Source: Capsulimonas corticalis
Lineage (GTDB): Bacteria; Armatimonadota; Armatimonadia; Armatimonadales; Capsulimonadaceae
DNA length: 64,000 nucleotides
Direction: 5' to 3'
NCBI RefSeq assembly: GCF_003574315.2
Contig: NZ_AP025739.1
Location: 2,356,001-2,420,000 of the forward strand
Every line of letters starts with the position of its first letter. The first letter of the stretch is position 1. The notes under the pieces were generated by a model that saw nothing but the letters and a program-made list of their open reading frames with translations, did no database searches and had not been told where the DNA came from. Below are positions 34,450 through 47,279 of this stretch, in pieces. The translations under genes and the position numbers were made by a program.

Positions 34450-34456
34450 TATGGTG

Positions 34457-34495
34457 AACGCCGGCGGCCTTTGATTTGGCCGCCGGCGTTTTTTT
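34457..34495 (+). terminator. Strong terminator, copy 1 of a repeated 34-bp palindrome
   Basis: CGCCGGCGGCC and GGCCGCCGGCG form an 11-bp stem around TTTGATTT, followed by T7. A copy in inverse orientation with two mismatches lies at 44237-44270, after the GH3 gene, so the pair brackets the mannan-type locus. Confidence 0.93.
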
Positions 34496-34580
34496 GCTTT
34501 CTGAATTCTGCCCGTGGCCCGCGAGCATTCCATCAATATGATATTAAGGGCGGCGTTCCCGGTAGCATTATTTCCGAACA

Positions 34581-34599
34581 TTTGGTATGATGTACCAAA
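34581..34599. promoter_or_regulatory. Perfect operator TTTGGTA-N5-TACCAAA before the regulator gene
   Basis: A 7-bp perfect inverted repeat with 5-bp spacer, 64 bp before the regulator start. The same operator occurs at 40450 before the decayed regulator copy, and TACCAAA half sites lie just upstream of both downstream pilin-gene promoters. The likely ligand is the adjacent GntR/LacI-type protein. Confidence 0.72.
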
Positions 34600-34662
34600 A
34601 TATGTGTCCATTTGACTTTGCCTGCCGGTCTGGTCAAATCGGTCACGTACGGGGCTTAACAT

Positions 34663-35904
34663 ATGCAATCCGACTCGACTGAAATTCTCGTCTCCGCCGA
34701 TACTGCCCGCCCGCAGCGCGTCTCCGAGCATGTGGCGGATGTCCTCTCCGGCCGTATCCGATCAGGGGTGTATGGCGCCGGGGAGGCGTTGCCTGCGGAG
34801 CGGGCGCTGGCCGCCGATCTTGGCGTCCACCGGCAGTCGGTGCGGGCCGCGATTGAACAACTGGTTCGCGATGGCCTCGTCAGCCAGCGTCCCAATTGCC
34901 GCCCTACGGTTGGACCGGAGCCTCTGGAAACGAAAGAAGAAAGAGGCCGCGGAGTGACGGAGCCTGTCAGTCGCAGGACGGCCCCACGGATCTCGGCGTC
35001 CAACCTTGTCGCCCTGATCATGTGGCACGGCGGCGGGCCGCTGGAGCACGCCGGCACGGCGCAGCAGCGCATTTTCCGGGGGATGAACCAGTCACTGATG
35101 CAGCTGAGGCGCCATGCGGTGTTCCTGGACCTGAGTGATCGGATCGGGTCGGAGGAGGAGAACGCGGCCCGCGAGGCCGAGCACCTGCGTTACATTCGGG
35201 ATGAGGGCTTCGGCGGGGCGCTGTTCTATCCCTACGCCTACCGCCGCAACCAAGAACTGGTGCGCGAAGTCAGCCGCCGTGTCCCGCTTGTCTTGCTCGA
35301 CCGGAAGATGGCCGGCGTCGATACGGACTTCGTGGGCCTTGAGAATCATCGCGCCATCGCCATGGTGGTCGAACACCTTCTCGCGCAGGGGCATCGCCGG
35401 ATCGTTTACATGACGCGCTCCGAGTCGATCCAGACCATCCATGACCGCCTCCAGGGGTACGTTGACACGGTGCGCGGCGCCGGCGATTCCGAGGTGGCCG
35501 AAATGGTCCTGAATCTGCCGCCATACCAAAACGAGCGCTCCTGGGCCTTCTTCGACGCCGCCTTCCGCCTGCCGGAAGATCAGCGCCCGACGGCGGCGGT
35601 CTGCATCAGCGACTATCTTGCGGTGACCGTGGCGGAGCGTCTCCAATATCTCGGCCTTTCCGTCCCGGAAGACGTGGCGCTGACGGGATTCGACAACATT
35701 GTGCCGGTCCTCCCAAGTGGAATCGGCCTGACGACGGTGGCGCAGCCCTACGAAGAAATCGGGATTCAGGCCGTAGACTTGCTGATGCGTCGCATCCGGG
35801 ACCGGCGCGCACCTCTACTCTCCGTGGAATTGCCGGCGGAACTCATCATCCGAGAGAGTTCCGCCCCTGTCGCAGAGCGTACCAAATCACTGGCTAAAAC
35901 ATAA
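34663..35904 (+). CDS. GntR/LacI-hybrid transcriptional regulator
   Basis: 413 residues. A GntR-type winged helix (residues 14-85; [40 protein letters not shown]) is joined to a LacI-type sugar-binding body (about 110-400; [39 protein letters not shown]). This is the layout of the arabinose repressor AraR. It should bind TTTGGTA-N5-TACCAAA sites and respond to a sugar released by the neighbouring GH76 and GH3 enzymes. A paralogue is encoded at 51225-52400 and a deleted copy lies at 40531. Predicted to repress the pilin-GH genes downstream. Confidence 0.88.
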
Positions 35905-35906
35905 GC

Positions 35907-35998
35907 GTACCAAAATAATTCTTGTGATCTGGTTGACATGGTCGCAATTGTGTGATAAACTCTGGTATGTATTCGCTGAGTTGGTCTTATTGATCCAG
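35907..35998 (+). promoter_or_regulatory. Promoter module of the second pilin-like gene
   Basis: GTACCAAAATAATT (35907-35920) lies 12 bp before TTGACA (35933-35938), then 17 bp to TAAACT (35956-35961). A TGGTA half site (35963-35967) lies just after the -10, and TTGATCCAG (35990-35998) is in the leader. Every element recurs in the same order and spacing at 40676-40766. The regulator can thus grip both sides of the promoter. Confidence 0.72.
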
Positions 35999-36061
35999 AA
36001 GCAAATCTTATCAGCTCATGGATCGGCCATGCCTGTGTCATCCAAAGAGAGGACCGGAATT

Positions 36062-36916
36062 ATGTCTAGTAAATTTCGTGGTTTTACCCTGATCGAACTG
36101 CTCGTAGTCATCGCTATCATTGCCATACTTGCGGCAATACTCTTCCCTGTCTTCGCGAAGGCGCGCGAGAAGGCCCGCCAGATCTCCTGCCTTTCCAACC
36201 AGAAGCAGCTCGGCCTGGGCGTCCTGCAGTACATGCAGGACTACGACGAGTGCTTCCCCTGCGGCGACCTTCCTTCGACGTTCGGCGGCGTCTACGGCGG
36301 AGGGGCCGGATGGGCCAACCAAATCTACCCCTACGTAAAAAGCGCCGCCGTCTATACGTGTCCGGATGACGCCGGGTACAAGGGCGTCGCGGTCGAAAGC
36401 TATGGGATCAATGAGAATCTGACCTCCGGCGCCACCGTGGACGGTAACAACACCCCCGAGGGCGGCGCGTTGAAAGTCGCTCAGTGCGGGGCCCCGGCGA
36501 ATACGATCCTGCTGGCCGAGACTACCGAGTGCGGTAATTATACACCGGTGACCACTGTCGGCGAACTGACCAGCCCGGCCATCACCGGCTTCTCCTGGGC
36601 CGGAACTGGCGGCCCAGGCCTGAACGTCGCCTCAAACGTCTGCACCAACTATGCGATGGGGCTTCAGGTCGGCCCGAGGACTTACCCGACCCATCCCGCA
36701 CGGCATACGAACTGGGGCAACTTCCTGCTGGCCGACGGGCATGCGAAATTCCTGAATCCGCTTCTCGTCTCCCCCGGCTTCAACGCCCAAGATTCGACTA
36801 ACGACACAACCGTGAACACGTCCAGCCCTAACCCCTATTTTGCGGCCGGAACCGGCTTCAGCGGCAAGAGCGTCACCACCGGCGCACCGTTCGTCGCCAC
36901 CTTCAGCGCCACCTGA
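36062..36916 (+). CDS. DUF1559 pilin-like protein
   Basis: 284 residues from ATG 36062 (GAGAGGA upstream). Prepilin leader with [28 protein letters not shown] after it, CP-type second cysteine (VYTCPDD), and the H-x9-DG motif as [16 protein letters not shown]. The C-terminus ends in FVATFSAT. It lies between the regulator and two mannanase-type genes. It closely resembles the protein at 40831 (shared [17 protein letters not shown]-like block and [10 protein letters not shown] near the end), so the two arose by duplication of the locus. Predicted to be processed by a prepilin peptidase and displayed at the envelope. Confidence 0.9.
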
Positions 36917-36988: not shown

Positions 36989-37197
36989 ACAGGCCCTCGT
37001 GCGACTTCGCCGAGCCGACCATTCTTTTCGTCGCTCACTTCGCTTTCTGCTTAGTTGTTATTGGTATAATCGCTATAAATTGCCTGTAGACATCACGGAA
37101 GCCACGCCATTCAACTTGGGAGGATCGAACGGCGGCGCACATCACGGTTCCATCATCAGCGCGCGATAAAGACAACGCGACGCAAGGAGAGATCACA

Positions 37198-38721
37198 ATG
37201 AAAATTTTCAGCACCATTCGTTCTCGGTTCGTAGCGACGGCGCTGCTGCTGGCCTCGACGGCGTTTCTCGCAGCCCCGGCCGCCAAAGCCCAGAACGCCG
37301 CCAACGCGGACGCTGTTTACAACGGCTACATCAACGCTTACTTGCAGACATCGAACGTCAACGGCCATAACTATCCGTTGCCGTATCTCTGCCAAAGTCT
37401 GAGCAACCGCGACCTGGCGTTCTTTTGGCAGCAAGCCTATATGATCACTGGGTTAGAAGACGCCTATGAAAGAAACTATTCCACCAGCCGCAAGCAGCTC
37501 ATCGACACCATGCTGAGTGGATTCATCACACAAAACCTTACGAATTGGTCCTGGGATGACTGGAACGACGATATTGCCTGGGCTTGTATCGCGATGGTGC
37601 GAGGCTATGTCGAAACCGGCAACACCACTTATCTGAATGAAGCCGTCAACAACTGGAACATGGCCTACAATCGCGGCTGGGACAGCACCTACGGCGGCGG
37701 GATTTGGGAGCAGGAGAGCAATGTCCCCAATGGCGGCAAAGTTGGCCTGAGCAACTGGCCCTTTGTCATTGCCGGTTGTTTCATCTATCAGGCTAACCAT
37801 GACGCCACCATTTTGAGCAAAAGCCAGGCAATTTACGCATGGGGGCGCTCCCATATCTTCAACACGAGCGACGGCTCGGTTTGGGAAGGCTGGTACCCGT
37901 CGGGCGCCGGCGGAGATGACAACGCCTACAATGACGGCCTGATCATCAACGCCGCCAATTCTCTCTACCAGATCACCGGAACCACTCAGTATTTGAATGA
38001 CGCCAAACTGGCCGCCAGCCATGTGATGAATAAATACCCGTCGGTTTTGAATGAAGACCATCCCGCAAACGGTGATTTTGGCGGCGATCAGGTGTATCGG
38101 GGAATCAGCCTGTTGGCGCGCCAGAATAATCTTTGGAGCACATACTGGCCGTGGCTTCAGAGCAATTGCACCGCTTCGTGGAATCACCGGCGCACCGATT
38201 ACAACATCACCTGGAACAACTTTAACGCGAACACCACCACCGGCAACATGGACGCCATGGAAGCTCTGGGCTCGCTCGTCGTGCAGTCCGTCACTCAGAT
38301 GAATCCTCTCACCGGCGTGCACGCCATTACCAATAAGGGAACGGGGTTGGCGATCGACAACGGCAGCACCAACACGCAAGGCGCCAAGATTGTCCAATGG
38401 GCCTTGAATGGCGGAAACGCACAGAAGTGGATCTTCACGCAAAACTCGGACAACTCCTGGAATATCGTGAGTGTGTATAGCGGTCAAGCCCTGGATGATC
38501 CCGGCTCCTCGAAAACCAACGGAACGCAGATGGACCAATGGGGCGTCAACGGCGGCTCCAACCAGAAATGGTGGGTCGATGTGCAGTCGGACGGCAGCTA
38601 CAAGATCTGGAACGTGGCGAGCGGCCTGGCGCTGGATAACGACAATCTTTCCGCCAACGGAACTCCGCTGATCCAGTGGACGTGGACCGGGTCGAACAAT
38701 CAACGCTGGATTTTGAGATAG
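37198..38721 (+). CDS. Secreted GH76-type alpha-mannanase with ricin-type lectin domain, copy 1
   Basis: 507 residues. Signal peptide 1-32 (cut after AAKAQ). The (alpha/alpha)6 catalytic domain has the GH76 Asp pair at 124-125 in WNDDIAWACIAMVRGY, and WDSTYGGGIWE and YNDGLIINAA as further conserved blocks. GH76 enzymes cut alpha-1,6-mannan backbones such as yeast mannan. A C-terminal ricin B-type beta-trefoil (about 373-507) has repeated QxW motifs (IVQWALNGGNAQKWIF, MDQWGVNGGSNQKWW, LIQWTWTGSNNQRW). Followed after 66 bp by its tandem paralogue. Confidence 0.87.
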   Translation: MKIFSTIRSRFVATALLLASTAFLAAPAAKAQNAANADAVYNGYINAYLQTSNVNGHNYPLPYLCQSLSNRDLAFFWQQAYMITGLEDAYERNYSTSRKQLIDTMLSGFITQNLTNWSWDDWNDDIAWACIAMVRGYVETGNTTYLNEAVNNWNMAYNRGWDSTYGGGIWEQESNVPNGGKVGLSNWPFVIAGCFIYQANHDATILSKSQAIYAWGRSHIFNTSDGSVWEGWYPSGAGGDDNAYNDGLIINAANSLYQITGTTQYLNDAKLAASHVMNKYPSVLNEDHPANGDFGGDQVYRGISLLARQNNLWSTYWPWLQSNCTASWNHRRTDYNITWNNFNANTTTGNMDAMEALGSLVVQSVTQMNPLTGVHAITNKGTGLAIDNGSTNTQGAKIVQWALNGGNAQKWIFTQNSDNSWNIVSVYSGQALDDPGSSKTNGTQMDQWGVNGGSNQKWWVDVQSDGSYKIWNVASGLALDNDNLSANGTPLIQWTWTGSNNQRWILR

Positions 38722-38787: not shown

Positions 38788-40314
38788 ATGAAGAATTTCA
38801 GCACCATGCGTTCTTGGTTCGTAACGACAGCGTTACTGCTGGCCTTGACCGGGTTTCTCGTCGCTCCGGCCGCCAAAGCCCAGAACGCGGCCAACGCGGA
38901 CGCTGCTTATAACGGCTTCATCAGCGCTTACTTGCAGACATCGAACGTCAGCCCCTATAACTTTCCGGTGCCGTACATCACCCAGAGTATCAGCAACCGC
39001 GACATGGCGTTCTTTTGGCAGCAGGCTTATATGATCACTGGCGTCGAAGACGCCTATGAGAGAAATTATGCGACAAGCCGCAAACAACAGATCAGTAATT
39101 TGCTGGATGGCTTCATCACACAAAATCTTACGAATTGGTCGTGGGATGCTTGGAACGACGATGTCGCCTGGGCTTGTATCGCGATGGTTCGCGGCTATGT
39201 TGAAACGGGCAACACGACCTATTTGAACGAAGCCGTCACAAACTGGAATATGGCCTACAATCGGGGGTGGGACAGCACCTACGGCGGCGGGATTTGGGAG
39301 CGAATGGACGAAGTTCCCAATGGCGGGAAATGCGGCCTGAGCAACTGGCCGTTCGTCATCGCCGGCTGCTTCATCTATCAGGCCAATCATGACGCCACCA
39401 TCTTAAGCAAGAGTCAGGCGATCTATGCGTGGGGGCGTTCCCATATCTTCAACACAAGCAATGGGTCGGTTTGGGAAGGCTGGTACCCGTCGGGCGCCGG
39501 CGGGGACGACAACGCCTACAATGACGGCCTGATCATCAACGCCGCCAATGCTCTGTACAAGATCACGGGAACAACCCAGTATTTCAATGACGCGCAGCTA
39601 GCCGTCAATCATATTATGAGTAAATATCCATCGATTTTGGATACAGACAAGCCCGCCAACGGCGGCTTTGGCGGCGATCAGGTTTATCGAGGGATCAGTC
39701 TTTTCGCTCGCCAAAATAACCTCTGGAATACGTATTGGCCGTGGCTCCAAAATAACTGCGCCGCCGCCTGGAATAATCGGCGCACCGATTACAACATCTC
39801 TTGTGACGTCTATACAGATCCTACCCCTCAGACTGGCGATCTCTTATCGATGTCCGCCTTAACCTCGGTCGTCGTGCAGGCCGTCACTCAGATGAATCCT
39901 CTCACCGGCGTGCACGCCATTACCAATCAGTCCACGGGATTGGCGATTGATAACGGCAGCACTAGCACTCAAGGAGCGAAGGTCGTCCAATGGGGCTTGA
40001 ATGGGGGGAACTCACAGAAATGGATCTTCACGCAAAACTCGGACAACTCTTGGAACATCGTCAGTGTCTATAGCGGTCAGGCTCTAGACGACCCCGGCGC
40101 CTCCAAAACAAACGGAACTCAGATGGACCAGTGGGGCGTCAACGGCGGCTCCAACCAGAAGTGGTGGGTCGATGTGCAGTCGGACGGCAGCTACAAGATC
40201 TGGAACGTAGCGAGCGGCCTGGCGCTGGATAACGACAATCTTTCCGCCAACGGAACTCCGCTGATCCAGTGGACGTGGACCGGGTCGAACAATCAACGCT
40301 GGATTTTGAGATAA
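38788..40314 (+). CDS. Secreted GH76-type alpha-mannanase with ricin-type lectin domain, copy 2
   Basis: 508 residues, a tandem paralogue of the preceding gene with the same order: signal peptide (cut after AAKAQ), GH76 domain with WNDDVAWACIAMVRGY, ricin-type trefoil. The catalytic halves differ at many codons, but the last 190 bp of the genes differ at only about two positions, suggesting recent gene conversion of the lectin end. Between the two domains the sequence differs most (CDVYTDPTPQTGD here, WNNFNANTTTGN in copy 1). Different side-chain preference on the same mannan is possible. Confidence 0.87.
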   Translation: MKNFSTMRSWFVTTALLLALTGFLVAPAAKAQNAANADAAYNGFISAYLQTSNVSPYNFPVPYITQSISNRDMAFFWQQAYMITGVEDAYERNYATSRKQQISNLLDGFITQNLTNWSWDAWNDDVAWACIAMVRGYVETGNTTYLNEAVTNWNMAYNRGWDSTYGGGIWERMDEVPNGGKCGLSNWPFVIAGCFIYQANHDATILSKSQAIYAWGRSHIFNTSNGSVWEGWYPSGAGGDDNAYNDGLIINAANALYKITGTTQYFNDAQLAVNHIMSKYPSILDTDKPANGGFGGDQVYRGISLFARQNNLWNTYWPWLQNNCAAAWNNRRTDYNISCDVYTDPTPQTGDLLSMSALTSVVVQAVTQMNPLTGVHAITNQSTGLAIDNGSTSTQGAKVVQWGLNGGNSQKWIFTQNSDNSWNIVSVYSGQALDDPGASKTNGTQMDQWGVNGGSNQKWWVDVQSDGSYKIWNVASGLALDNDNLSANGTPLIQWTWTGSNNQRWILR

Positions 40315-40344: not shown

Positions 40345-40391
40345 AACTGGCGTCCTGGGTTGGTTCTCGCCGGCCCAGGACGCCAGTTTTT
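40345..40391 (+). terminator. Terminator after the mannanase pair
   Basis: AACTGGCGTCCTGGG and CCCAGGACGCCAGTT form a 15-bp perfect stem, followed by a T run. Confidence 0.92.
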
Positions 40392-40449
40392 GCAATATTG
40401 ATCCCCGCTTTTCAGATCCTCAATCCTCATAAAACTGTGAAATTATTCA

Positions 40450-40468
40450 TTTGGTATGTTGTACCAAA
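40450..40468. promoter_or_regulatory. Second TTTGGTA-N5-TACCAAA operator, before the regulator pseudogene
   Basis: A perfect inverted repeat identical in half sites to 34581-34599 (spacer TGTTG instead of TGATG). The flanking leader is also homologous (GGTCTGGTCAAATC versus GGATCTGGTCAAATC), so the whole upstream region was duplicated with the regulator gene. Confidence 0.72.
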
Positions 40469-40530
40469 TTGCGTTCGTCTTGGATGCTGCCTACGGATCT
40501 GGTCAAATCATCCCAGATGCGGATTAACGT

Positions 40531-40671
40531 ATGCAATCCGATGCGACGAGAAATTCTCGCCTTCGCCGACCCTGCCTGAACTTCTGCTCTTCATGGAGTT
40601 GCCGCCTGAGCTAATCGTCCGAGAAAGCTCCCTCTCTCATTCGTATCATACCAAAATTCAGACCATTGATT
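40531..40671 (+). pseudogene. Internally deleted copy of the GntR/LacI-type regulator
   Basis: It starts ATGCAATCCGA like the intact gene at 34663 and keeps the next 30 or so bases (GAAATTCTCG block) with one inserted base that shifts the frame. It then jumps to the last 100 bases of the gene (GGAGTTGCCGCCTGAGC against GGAATTGCCGGCGGAAC; CCGAGAAAGCTCC against CCGAGAGAGTTCC), ending in the same TACCAAAATAATT. About 1.1 kb of the 1.24-kb gene is missing. The remnant cannot encode a regulator, but the flanking operator and promoter survive. Confidence 0.85.
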
Positions 40672-40675
40672 GTGT

Positions 40676-40766
40676 GTACCAAAATAATTTCATAATATGG
40701 TTGACAGGCTGATTGTTGTGTGATACACTCTGGTATGCATTCGCTGAAATGGTCTTATTGATCCAG
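40676..40766 (+). promoter_or_regulatory. Promoter module of the third pilin-like gene
   Basis: GTACCAAAATAATT (40676-40689), TTGACA (40701-40706), 17-bp spacer, TACACT (40724-40729), TGGTATG just after it and TTGATCCAG (40758-40766). It repeats the arrangement at 35907-35998. The intact regulator at 34663 probably serves this promoter in trans, since the local copy is broken. Confidence 0.72.
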
Positions 40767-40830
40767 AAGCAAAATCTTATCGGCTTCTCGATCGGCCGCG
40801 AATGTGTCATCCACAGAGAGGATCTGAATC

Positions 40831-41697
40831 ATGTCTCGTAAATTCCGCGGTTTCACTTTGATTGAATTGCTCGTCGTTATTGCTATCATCGCTATCCTTG
40901 CGGCAATACTCTTCCCTGTCTTCGCCAAAGCTCGCGAGAAGGCCCGCCAGACCGCATGTCTTTCCAACGAGAAGCAGCTTGGCCTGGGGATCCTGCAGTA
41001 CGTTCAGGATAACGACGAGGTCTTTCCCTGCGGCGCCGTGCCGACCGTCGGCGGCGTACCGACGCCAGGCAGCGGCTACGGCGGCGGGGCAGGATGGGGC
41101 GGTCAAATCTATCCCTATGTGAAGAGCGCCGCCGTATACTCCTGTCCGGATGACTCCGGCTCCGGCAGCGGCCCGGTCGTCAGCTACGGAATGAATGAGA
41201 ATCTGACTTCCGGCGCGGCCGTGGACGGCAACAACACGCCGATGGGCGGCGGGGTAAAGGTCGCTCAGACCGGCTCGCCCGCTCAGACCGTCCTTCTCGG
41301 CGAGACGCACGGATGCCGCGCTTACACATCCCCCGCCACTCCCGGAGAGCAGACCAGCCCGGCCATCACCGGCTTCAACTATTCCGGCGGCGGAACCAAT
41401 AGCGACGGCCTGAATATTTCCGGGACCGCCTGCACTGCCTACGCGATGGGAGTACAGATCGGCTCGCGGCCCTACCCGAGCAACCCGGGACGGCACACGG
41501 ACGCCAGTAACTTCCTGCTCGCCGACGGCCACGCGAAGTACATTAATGCGACCCGCGTTTCTCCTGGCTTCAGCAACTCCAGCGCCACCGCCGACACGAC
41601 GGTGACGACGGGAGGCTATTTTGCGGCTGGCACTGGCTTTAGCGGCAACAGCGTCGCGACAGGCGGCCCGTTCGCCGCGACCTTCAGCGCCAACTGA
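40831..41697 (+). CDS. DUF1559 pilin-like protein
   Basis: 288 residues. [20 protein letters not shown] leader, [23 protein letters not shown]-x9-DG as [16 protein letters not shown] and the C-terminal FAATFSAN. It is a sister of the protein at 36062 by sequence and promoter. It lies upstream of the secreted GH3 gene, in the same relation as the other pilin-enzyme pairs here. Confidence 0.9.
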
Positions 41698-41803: not shown

Positions 41804-41861
41804 TGTCTCGTTATGTGCCTCTATGGGATTCCTAGCGATGCGGCGGCGAAAAGGTACTACT

Positions 41862-44222
41862 ATGCTTCGATTACTAACTCTTGCTTCCCTGCGCGGCTTA
41901 TTTGTAGCCTCGGGTATTGTTCTTGCCGGCGCGTCGGCTCCGGCGGCGCCGCACTCCTCGCCGCGTCCCATCCACCCAAACGCGCAGCTTGCGTCACCGC
42001 AGATCGAGCGCCGGGTCAACGAGCTGCTCAAGAAGATGACGCTCCCGGAAAAACTCGGCCAGCTTGTGCAGTACAACACCTCCGGCACGACATCGGCTGC
42101 CACCACAGCCGGTCCTAACGGTCAAGCGGCTCCGCAAGGCGAGCAGCTCAACGCCATGCAGCTTGCCGAGCGGGGCCTCATCGGCTCGCTGCTCAACGTC
42201 GGCGGACAGGCGCAAGTCACCGCGTATCAGCACGCCGCCGTCGACAAGAGCCGCCTGCATATCCCTCTGCTGACCGGCGCGGACGTCCTGCATGGATACC
42301 GCACCGGCTATCCGATCCCGCTCGGAGTCGCCGCCAGCTTCGATCCCGATCTTGGGGCTTCGCTCGCTCGTATGGCCGCCGAGGAGGCGACGCCCTCCGG
42401 AATCCGCTGGTTCTACGCGCCCATGGTCGATATCTCCCGCGACGCCCGCTGGGGACGCACGGCCGAGGGCTCCGGCGAAGATGCTTATCTCGGCTCAGCC
42501 ATGGCCCGCGCCTATGTTCACGGATTCCAGGGCGATCGGCTCGACGATCCTCAGTCTGTGGCCGCCTCCGTCAAACACTTCGCCGCCTATGGCGCCGCCG
42601 AGGCCGGCCGCGAGTACAACACCACCGATATGAGCGACAGCCGCCTCCGCCAGGACTACCTCCCGCCCTACAAAGCCGCCGTGGACGCCGGCGCCGTCAC
42701 CCTGATGTCTGCCTTCAATGCGCTGAACGGCGTACCGGCCACGGCGAACCCCTATCTGCTCGATACTATTCTGCGCAAGGAGTGGGGCTTCGACGGCTTC
42801 GTCGTGAGCGACGATCGCGCGATCGTCGAGCTGATCAACCACGGCGTCGCGCTCGACCCCGCAACCGCGGCGCAAAAGGCGATCAACGCCGGCGTTGAGG
42901 TCGACATGCGCGGGCATGTCTACGACGCCGAGCTGCCCGCTCTCGTCCGCTCCGGCCGCGTTTCTCTGTCCACCATCGACGAGGCCGTTCGTCGGGTCCT
43001 GCGCGTCAAGTTCGCTCTGGGCCTTTTTGAGCATCCCTATCCCACCGGCGCCGAGGTCACTGCCGCCGTGCCGGAACACCGCGTACTCGTGCGTAAAGCC
43101 GCCGAGGAGTCGTTCGTCCTGCTCCAGAACAAGCCGGCCAATGGAATTCCCGCCCTGCCGCTGCGCGCAAATGCGAAGATTGCGCTCATCGGCCCCATGG
43201 CGGATACCCGCGATGTGCAGGGAGCGTGGGGCGGGGGCAGAGGAGAGGATTCGATCACGATTCGGAAGGGGCTTGAAGAATGGGCCGCCGGTCACGGCGG
43301 CTCAGTCGTATATGCTCGCGGAACCGAGGTCGAGTCCGTATCCGATGCGGGTTTTGCGGAGGCGGAAGAGGCGGCGCGGCAGGCCGATGTCGTCGTGCTT
43401 GTCCTTGGCGAGTCGGGCGGCCTTAGCGGAGAAGCGGCGGCGCGCGCCCACATCGATCTGCCTGGCAATCAGCAGCAGCTGATCGATCGGATTTCTTCGC
43501 TTGGCAAACCCGTCGTTATGGTGCTCTTCTCCGGTCGCCCTCTCGTTCTCACGCCCGTCGTGAACAAGGTGGACGCCATCCTTGAGGTCTGGTTCCCTGG
43601 AACCGAGGCAGGCCACGCTGTCGCGCGCGTCCTATACGGCGAAGTTTCGCCCAGTGGGAAACTTCCCATGAGCTTCCCGCAGACCGAGGGGCAGGAGCCG
43701 CTCTACTACAACCAATTGCCCACAGGCCGGCCGGCCAGGGACGCCAACCTCAACGTCCGGGGCGATGGCGCCGCACACTGGCTCTCCCGCTACATTGACG
43801 CCCCCAACGCCGCGCTCTTTCCCTTCGGCTTCGGCCTTTCCTACACTCAGTTCGGATATTCGGATGTGACGCTCTCGCGTCAGAGCCTCCCCATGCGCGA
43901 AGCTGTCGCCGGCGCGAAGAGTCTTGTCATCGCCAAAGTCACCGTCACGAATACCGGAAAGGCGCCCGCCACCGAAGTCACGCAATGTTATGTCGGCAAC
44001 GTCGGCGCAAGCCTCGAACAGCCTATCCGCAGTCTGAAGGGCTTCGTGCGCGTCACGCTGGCTCCCGGCGAATCGAAGGAGATTAGCTTTCCTCTCGGCT
44101 TTGAAGAGCTGTCGTTCTTCGACAACGCCGGCCATCAGCTCGTCGAGCCGAGTATGTACAACGTGTGGATCGGCGGCGATTCGCTGGCGGCAAGCCACGG
44201 AGAATTTCAGATCACCCGGTAG
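41862..44222 (+). CDS. Secreted GH3 family beta-glycosidase (BglX-like)
   Basis: About 786 residues from ATG 41862 (AAAAGG upstream; an in-frame ATG at 41823 is less likely). A signal peptide ends near ASAPAAPH. The GH3 barrel has YAPMVDISRDARWGRTAEG and the nucleophile Asp in DGFVVSDDRAIVEL. The second domain carries KIALIGPMADTRDVQGAW and SGKLPMSFPQTEGQ. A fibronectin III-like end (VTVTNTGKAPATEVTQCYV) completes the BglX layout. Probably periplasmic or secreted, cleaving beta-linked glucose, xylose or similar ends. Confidence 0.93.
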   Translation: MLRLLTLASLRGLFVASGIVLAGASAPAAPHSSPRPIHPNAQLASPQIERRVNELLKKMTLPEKLGQLVQYNTSGTTSAATTAGPNGQAAPQGEQLNAMQLAERGLIGSLLNVGGQAQVTAYQHAAVDKSRLHIPLLTGADVLHGYRTGYPIPLGVAASFDPDLGASLARMAAEEATPSGIRWFYAPMVDISRDARWGRTAEGSGEDAYLGSAMARAYVHGFQGDRLDDPQSVAASVKHFAAYGAAEAGREYNTTDMSDSRLRQDYLPPYKAAVDAGAVTLMSAFNALNGVPATANPYLLDTILRKEWGFDGFVVSDDRAIVELINHGVALDPATAAQKAINAGVEVDMRGHVYDAELPALVRSGRVSLSTIDEAVRRVLRVKFALGLFEHPYPTGAEVTAAVPEHRVLVRKAAEESFVLLQNKPANGIPALPLRANAKIALIGPMADTRDVQGAWGGGRGEDSITIRKGLEEWAAGHGGSVVYARGTEVESVSDAGFAEAEEAARQADVVVLVLGESGGLSGEAAARAHIDLPGNQQQLIDRISSLGKPVVMVLFSGRPLVLTPVVNKVDAILEVWFPGTEAGHAVARVLYGEVSPSGKLPMSFPQTEGQEPLYYNQLPTGRPARDANLNVRGDGAAHWLSRYIDAPNAALFPFGFGLSYTQFGYSDVTLSRQSLPMREAVAGAKSLVIAKVTVTNTGKAPATEVTQCYVGNVGASLEQPIRSLKGFVRVTLAPGESKEISFPLGFEELSFFDNAGHQLVEPSMYNVWIGGDSLAASHGEFQITR

Positions 44223-46469: not shown

Positions 46470-47279
46470 ATGCGAAGAACTGATAAAGCCGGTTTTACTT
46501 TGATTGAATTGCTAGTCGTCATCGCCATTATCGCGATTCTTGCCGCGATTCTCTTCCCCGTTTTCGCCAAAGCGCGCGAAAAAGCGCGTCAGGCCAGCTG
46601 TTTGAGCAACGAAAAGCAGATCGGTCTGGGGATTCTGCAGTACGTGCAAGACAGCGATGAAACCTACCCGCTATCGGACCGAACCGGATGCTGGGAGCAG
46701 TCGACTTATCCGTATGTGAAGTCGGTCAATGTGTACAAGTGTCCGTCCAATCCGGACTCCAGCCTGAACATTCCCCGCAATGAAGTGCAAGATCCCGCCT
46801 TCTATGGCGGTAATGTTCCCGCGACGTTCCCTGTCAGCTATGGTATGAACAACTTCCTTGGCGAGTCTCCTTCTGGAGCCGGCGGCAAGGCGCAAACACT
46901 GGCTTTCATCCGCGAGCCAGCATCCCGCATCATGATTGCAGAGCGGCATGTGGACACCGGCGGCGATCCTAACAACGATGGCGACAATCAGAATGCCGTC
47001 GGCTGGACAGACTGGGATGCCGGTAAGTGGTCGCGAGCGCTTTTCGCGGGTCACACGGGCCGCATGAATGTTCTTTTCTGTGACGGTCACGTCAAGGGAA
47101 TGAAGCCTACGCAGACCGCGACGCCCGTCAACATGTGGGGAGACGTCAACAACGCTGGCTCAGGCACGGGGCCGTGCGATGTTGCGCCGTATGATGGTGA
47201 CAACAACACGATCAACTGCGATCAGCCGTCCACGGGTCTGACCCAAGGAATGCAGTTGCTGGAATCCAAGTATCAGTAA
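46470..47279 (+). CDS. DUF1559 pilin-like protein
   Basis: 269 residues. [20 protein letters not shown] leader, [22 protein letters not shown], and H-x9-DG as [16 protein letters not shown]. Unlike four of the others it lacks the ATFS-type tail and ends MQLLESKYQ, so it belongs with the next gene in a second subgroup. Strong promoter and terminator make it monocistronic. Confidence 0.88.

Follow-up and report, generated by a model that had tools for sequence, protein, structure and literature searches.

Regulator pseudogenes of a general kind follow segmental duplication: the duplicate regulator is lost and its target promoter is kept. If a locus has this history, which regulator then reads the promoter that was left behind? 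We examined a stretch of the Capsulimonas corticalis genome (hereafter the window; 64,000 nucleotides, genome positions 2356001-2420000), in which the first-pass annotation had described the remains of a regulator gene near 40.5 kb. Positions refer to the window unless given as genome positions.

The regulator relic and the copied block

The genes of the locus and the hairpins beside them are as follows.

34456-34491: terminator-like hairpin upstream of operator 1
34663..35904, plus strand: intact regulator, here called R, with a GntR winged helix and a LacI-type sugar-binding domain (PF00392 and PF13377 above cut-off)
36062..36913, plus strand: pilin-like gene 1 (N_methyl, DUF1559; PF07963 and PF07596 above cut-off in the translation)
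37198..38721, plus strand: GH76a with a ricin-type lectin domain (PF03663, PF14200), outside the duplicated block
38788..40314, plus strand: GH76b, a tandem copy of GH76a, 84% identical (PF03663, PF14200)
40345..40392, plus strand: terminator-like hairpin and T run between GH76b and cassette 2 (20-pair stem, -39.8 kcal/mol, z -8.0)
40531..40630, plus strand: regulator pseudogene (5' fragment 40531-40576, 3' fragment 40580-40630)
40831..41697, plus strand: pilin-like gene 2, sister of pilin 1 (PF07963 and PF07596 above cut-off)
41823..44222, plus strand: GH3 glycoside hydrolase downstream of cassette 2 (PF00933, PF01915, PF14310)

When the region 40430-40840 was compared by blastn with the whole 7.65 Mb single-contig genome, it matched, besides itself, only 34579-34707 (76%, E=4.9e-16) and 35811-36071 (74%, E=1.3e-40). 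Pairwise alignment, the check proposed by the first-pass annotation, showed that the relic is significantly similar to the 34663 regulator gene at its two ends, the scores of 98 and 48 lying far above the maxima of 25 and 24 reached in 200 shuffles. About 45 bp at the 5' end and 51 bp at the 3' end could be aligned: the 5' fragment shares 38 of 45 positions with 34663-34707 and carries one inserted base, and the 3' fragment (39/51 identical) corresponds to 35811-35861. The intervening 1.1 kb or so of the regulator gene, 34708-35810, is absent from the second copy. Read from the start codon, the frame stops after 27 codons, and the tail of the LacI-type domain, ELPPELIVRESS, is still legible in a different frame. 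That is, the relic is homologous to both ends of R and its reading frame is broken, with the deletion and the frameshift both as first described. The relic of a regulator gene at 40.5 kb is real, and the earlier description was right wherever we measured it.

Significant homology extends beyond the relic in the pairwise alignment: it begins at the operator (34579/40448) and continues for some 30 bp beyond the stop codon of the pilin (36947/41728). Within it, 42 of the 60 positions of the leader between operator and regulator are identical in the two cassettes, as are 77 of 91 in the pilin leader and 642 of 839 in the pilin gene. The promoter regions are 77% identical to each other (versus 55% to a third cassette, described below) and the two pilins share 71% of their amino acids and form sisters in the tree (support 99/98), which bears out the claim that the promoter and the pilin-like gene following the relic are copies too. 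Blastn, alignments and genome-wide site searches agree with the proposed course of events, in which a block from operator to pilin was duplicated, the second regulator was lost and its cis sites were kept.

The enzyme does not belong to this unit, contrary to the proposed regulator-pilin-enzyme module. GH76a and GH76b are tandem copies that adjoin each other between cassettes 1 and 2, and the GH3 gene is the next one after pilin 2. A single tandem duplication of regulator, pilin and enzyme was rejected, since it does not fit the observed gene order; duplication of an operator-regulator-pilin block without the enzyme is well supported by the sequence. Synonymous divergence is 0.73 +/- 0.09 for the pilins and 0.64 for the catalytic parts of GH76, and with values so alike the two duplications may have occurred at similar times. 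Within the GH76 lectin domain, the stretch 38545-38644 is 98% identical to its GH76b counterpart (the remainder mostly 71-93%), which suggests gene conversion.

Regulator R and the candidate sites

The N-terminal part of R is a GntR winged helix (PF00392, E=1.5e-15, residues 21-77) and the C-terminal part a LacI/periplasmic-binding-type sensor (PF13377, E=1.2e-30, residues 236-400); residues 206-401 match the AraR sensor domain structure 3tb6. Eleven close paralogues were found. R thus shares with AraR and the GntR/LacI chimeric repressors the fusion of a winged helix to a sugar-binding domain. When arabinose is absent, AraR of Bacillus subtilis acts as a repressor on palindromes in its own promoter and in its target promoters, and AraR-type repressors make use of cooperative site pairs (PMC4218819). 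Here, likewise, a palindrome lies at R's own promoter and further candidate sites lie at target promoters. R is nevertheless not AraR proper, which is recognized by the operator ATTTGTACGTACAAAT and arabinose genes nearby: its operator is TTTGGTATGATGTACCAAA (TTTGGTA-N5-TACCAAA), its neighbours are GH76, GH3 and pilin-like genes, and its predicted target promoters carry paired direct half-sites. NanR of Escherichia coli also has a GntR-type winged helix and binds repeated GGTATA sites (PMC8012715), comparable to the GGTA(C/T) within the half-sites of this locus. However, NanR has no LacI-type domain and its repeats stand close together, whereas the half-sites here are 28 bases apart.

The cis sites of the two cassettes are arranged in parallel.

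34581..34599: operator 1, the palindrome TTTGGTATGATGTACCAAA, which overlaps the -10-like TATGAT in the promoter of R itself
35880..35914, plus strand: paired half-sites TACCAAA-N21-TACCAAA of cassette 1 (starts 35880 and 35908), upstream of the pilin promoter, the first of them within the end of the R gene
35933..35968, plus strand: first pilin promoter in the sequence, TTGACA-17-TAAACT, then CTGGTAT
40450..40468: operator 2, TTTGGTATGTTGTACCAAA, 18/19 identical to operator 1
40649..40683, plus strand: paired half-sites TACCAAA-N21-TACCAAA of cassette 2 (starts 40649 and 40677)
40701..40736, plus strand: second pilin promoter in the sequence, TTGACA-17-TACACT, then CTGGTAT

These sites are rare. 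Just two places in the genome match TTGGTA-N5-TACCAA without mismatch, one before R and one before the relic. For the pair TACCAWA-N21-TACCAWA the genome has exactly three occurrences (zero in the reversed control): one before each of the two pilin promoters, where in both cases the half-site starts are 28 bases apart, and one directly behind a regulator 76% identical to R (genome 5389122-5389156, minus strand). The CTGGTAT after each pilin -10 box is inverted relative to the two upstream half-sites.

Two further sites in the window deserve mention. Between 46290 and 46400, ahead of a pilin gene at 46470, there are a TTGTACCAAA site and a TTGACA box; this pilin is possibly a further target of the same regulator. 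A GGTAT-type site in the GH76a promoter, TTGGTATAAT near 37064, was discarded, being indistinguishable from an extended -10 box.

The sequence shows the duplication and the loss of the second regulator, along with the conservation and genome-wide rarity of the sites; we consider it probable that R now controls both pilins. An operator-regulator-promoter-pilin cassette was copied locally, the copies now flanking the two GH76 genes, with GH3 after the second. With DNA specificity unchanged in both copies, the regulators would have been redundant. The second one probably remained coding for long before an internal 1.1 kb deletion and a one-base insertion destroyed it, leaving operator 2 and the paired half-sites of the second pilin promoter behind. 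By its layout R should be a repressor that lets go of DNA on sugar binding, and it would also repress itself, as operator 1 covers the -10-like TATGAT. Binding, repression, the sugar signal and control in trans are all inferred; going by the GH76 and GH3 neighbours, we guess at a mannose- or glucose-type sugar as a possible signal.

Are the sites of cassette 2 instead dead leftovers of a recently deleted regulator, with pilin 2 unregulated or otherwise controlled? Of the third codon positions in the relic 3' end, 7 out of 17 differ from R, versus 5 of 34 other positions (p=0.04). According to this coding-type pattern, weak as it is, the second regulator probably still worked during the greater part of the period after the duplication and disappeared late, so that the cis sites may simply have lacked time to decay. 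The -10-like box at operator 2 is moreover altered (TATGTT versus TATGAT at operator 1). Late loss weakens the case that the sites were kept for the sake of R; R's expected ability to use them is unaffected. The half-sites, however, are fully conserved between cassettes 1 and 2 (14/14) and the DNA around the first of them is not (14/39; p=1.7e-5). R itself is intact and would meet near-identical sites. We regard leftover sites as improbable.

A perfect palindrome with no regulator gene behind it might also have acquired a new role, operator 2 serving as a decoy or as a remote looping site together with the half-sites, in the manner of the cooperative pairs of AraR-type repressors (PMC4218819). 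Such a role would explain why the relic region was retained. A single extra site would titrate little, though, and we hold this idea to be very improbable.

Sister cassettes in the genome and in a congener

A second intact regulator lies 3 Mb away at genome 5389256-5390440. It is 76% identical to R, with a similar winged helix, and the two are sisters in the tree (100/99), next to the C612 regulator of a congener (100/99). Behind it (genome 5388800-5389160, minus strand) we found a pilin remnant whose open frame, about 67 codons long, retains IVIAIIAIHMAILFPVF and has lost the GFTLIE motif and almost all else. The pilin promoter and the paired half-sites are kept, making this cassette the mirror image of the one with the relic. 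One of the three cassettes is thus complete, one lacks the regulator and one lacks the pilin; such complementary losses among three sister cassettes of one genome set this case apart from the general kind of regulator pseudogene.

The claim that a single surviving regulator now governs both units is not sustained in its strict form, as behind the intact sister the paired half-sites are the same, and this regulator may recognize the same DNA as R. Cassette 2 has at least two intact candidate regulators, and could be run mainly by this sister, or by several paralogues of overlapping specificity, rather than by R. The shared TACCAWA-N21-TACCAWA pair, the similar winged helix and the eleven close paralogues speak for it; on the other side, the perfect palindrome stands only at R and at the relic, and the search for a TTGGTA-N5-TACCAA-type palindrome before the sister regulator found none. 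We consider control by the sister or by paralogues unlikely, although it is the strongest of the competing readings. Since the second intact sister shares the half-site code, control of both units by one surviving regulator is no more than likely. To return to control by R: both pilins would be repressed by R or its sister, which may share its job, and the neighbouring glycoside hydrolases are perhaps under R too.

Another relic of a regulator of this family (genome 2789270-2789660, residues about 192-259) lies upstream of a pilin and a GH2 gene and is preceded by ATTTGGTATGAT, the left half of the operator. A candidate relic at genome 283293-283610 was set aside as an in-frame fusion of zinc-finger-like and LacI-type parts; the open frame there (genome 283305-283860, minus strand) joins a zinc-finger-like part of UBP-type appearance to the final portion of a LacI-type sensor domain.

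For comparison with a congener we used one MAG, Capsulimonas sp. RYN_270 (69% complete). One of its contigs carries a regulator and, behind it, a pilin that is not close to pilins 1 and 2. The first-pass annotation had suggested a search of relatives for an intact version of the second regulator; none was found in RYN_270, which leaves the loss undated by this MAG. On C612 of the congener (reverse strand 1215-1320), where the pilin follows the regulator, GGTGC takes the place of GGTA(C/T) in the sites, a difference that would fit a joint change of site and regulator.

Regulator-pilin cassettes in Capsulimonas

Both pilins resemble other DUF1559 pilin-like proteins of Planctomycetes, Armatimonadota and their relatives in having a prepilin methylation motif and the DUF1559 domain (PF07963, PF07596). 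They differ in belonging to one cassette with a co-copied sugar-type regulator. This genome has at least 151 DUF1559 pilin-like matches, many of which adjoin regulators or glycoside hydrolases. The literature that we searched offered no function for DUF1559, nor a precedent for sugar regulons built in this way around pilin-like proteins.

Newly seen here are the exactly two perfect palindromes, the three half-site pairs and the further regulator relic upstream of a pilin. It seems that such cassettes of regulator and pilin increased in number and later decayed part by part, the cis sites being retained. Tentatively, and with more doubt than confidence, we propose that in Capsulimonas a regulator-pilin cassette is spread to places beside varied glycoside hydrolases, its promoter code (TACCAWA-N21-TACCAWA, TTGACA, GGTAY) staying fixed, and that copies then lose the regulator or the pilin, which would wire dispersed enzyme loci to a few surviving regulators. 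With three sister cassettes in one genome and promoter sites common to all, the locus is a natural experiment in rewiring after duplication, and a modest but clear example of how gene control is rewired in this way. It also links the numerous DUF1559 pilin-like proteins with glycoside hydrolases and sugar-type regulators, a hint that some of these pilin-like proteins are switched on with polysaccharide use.
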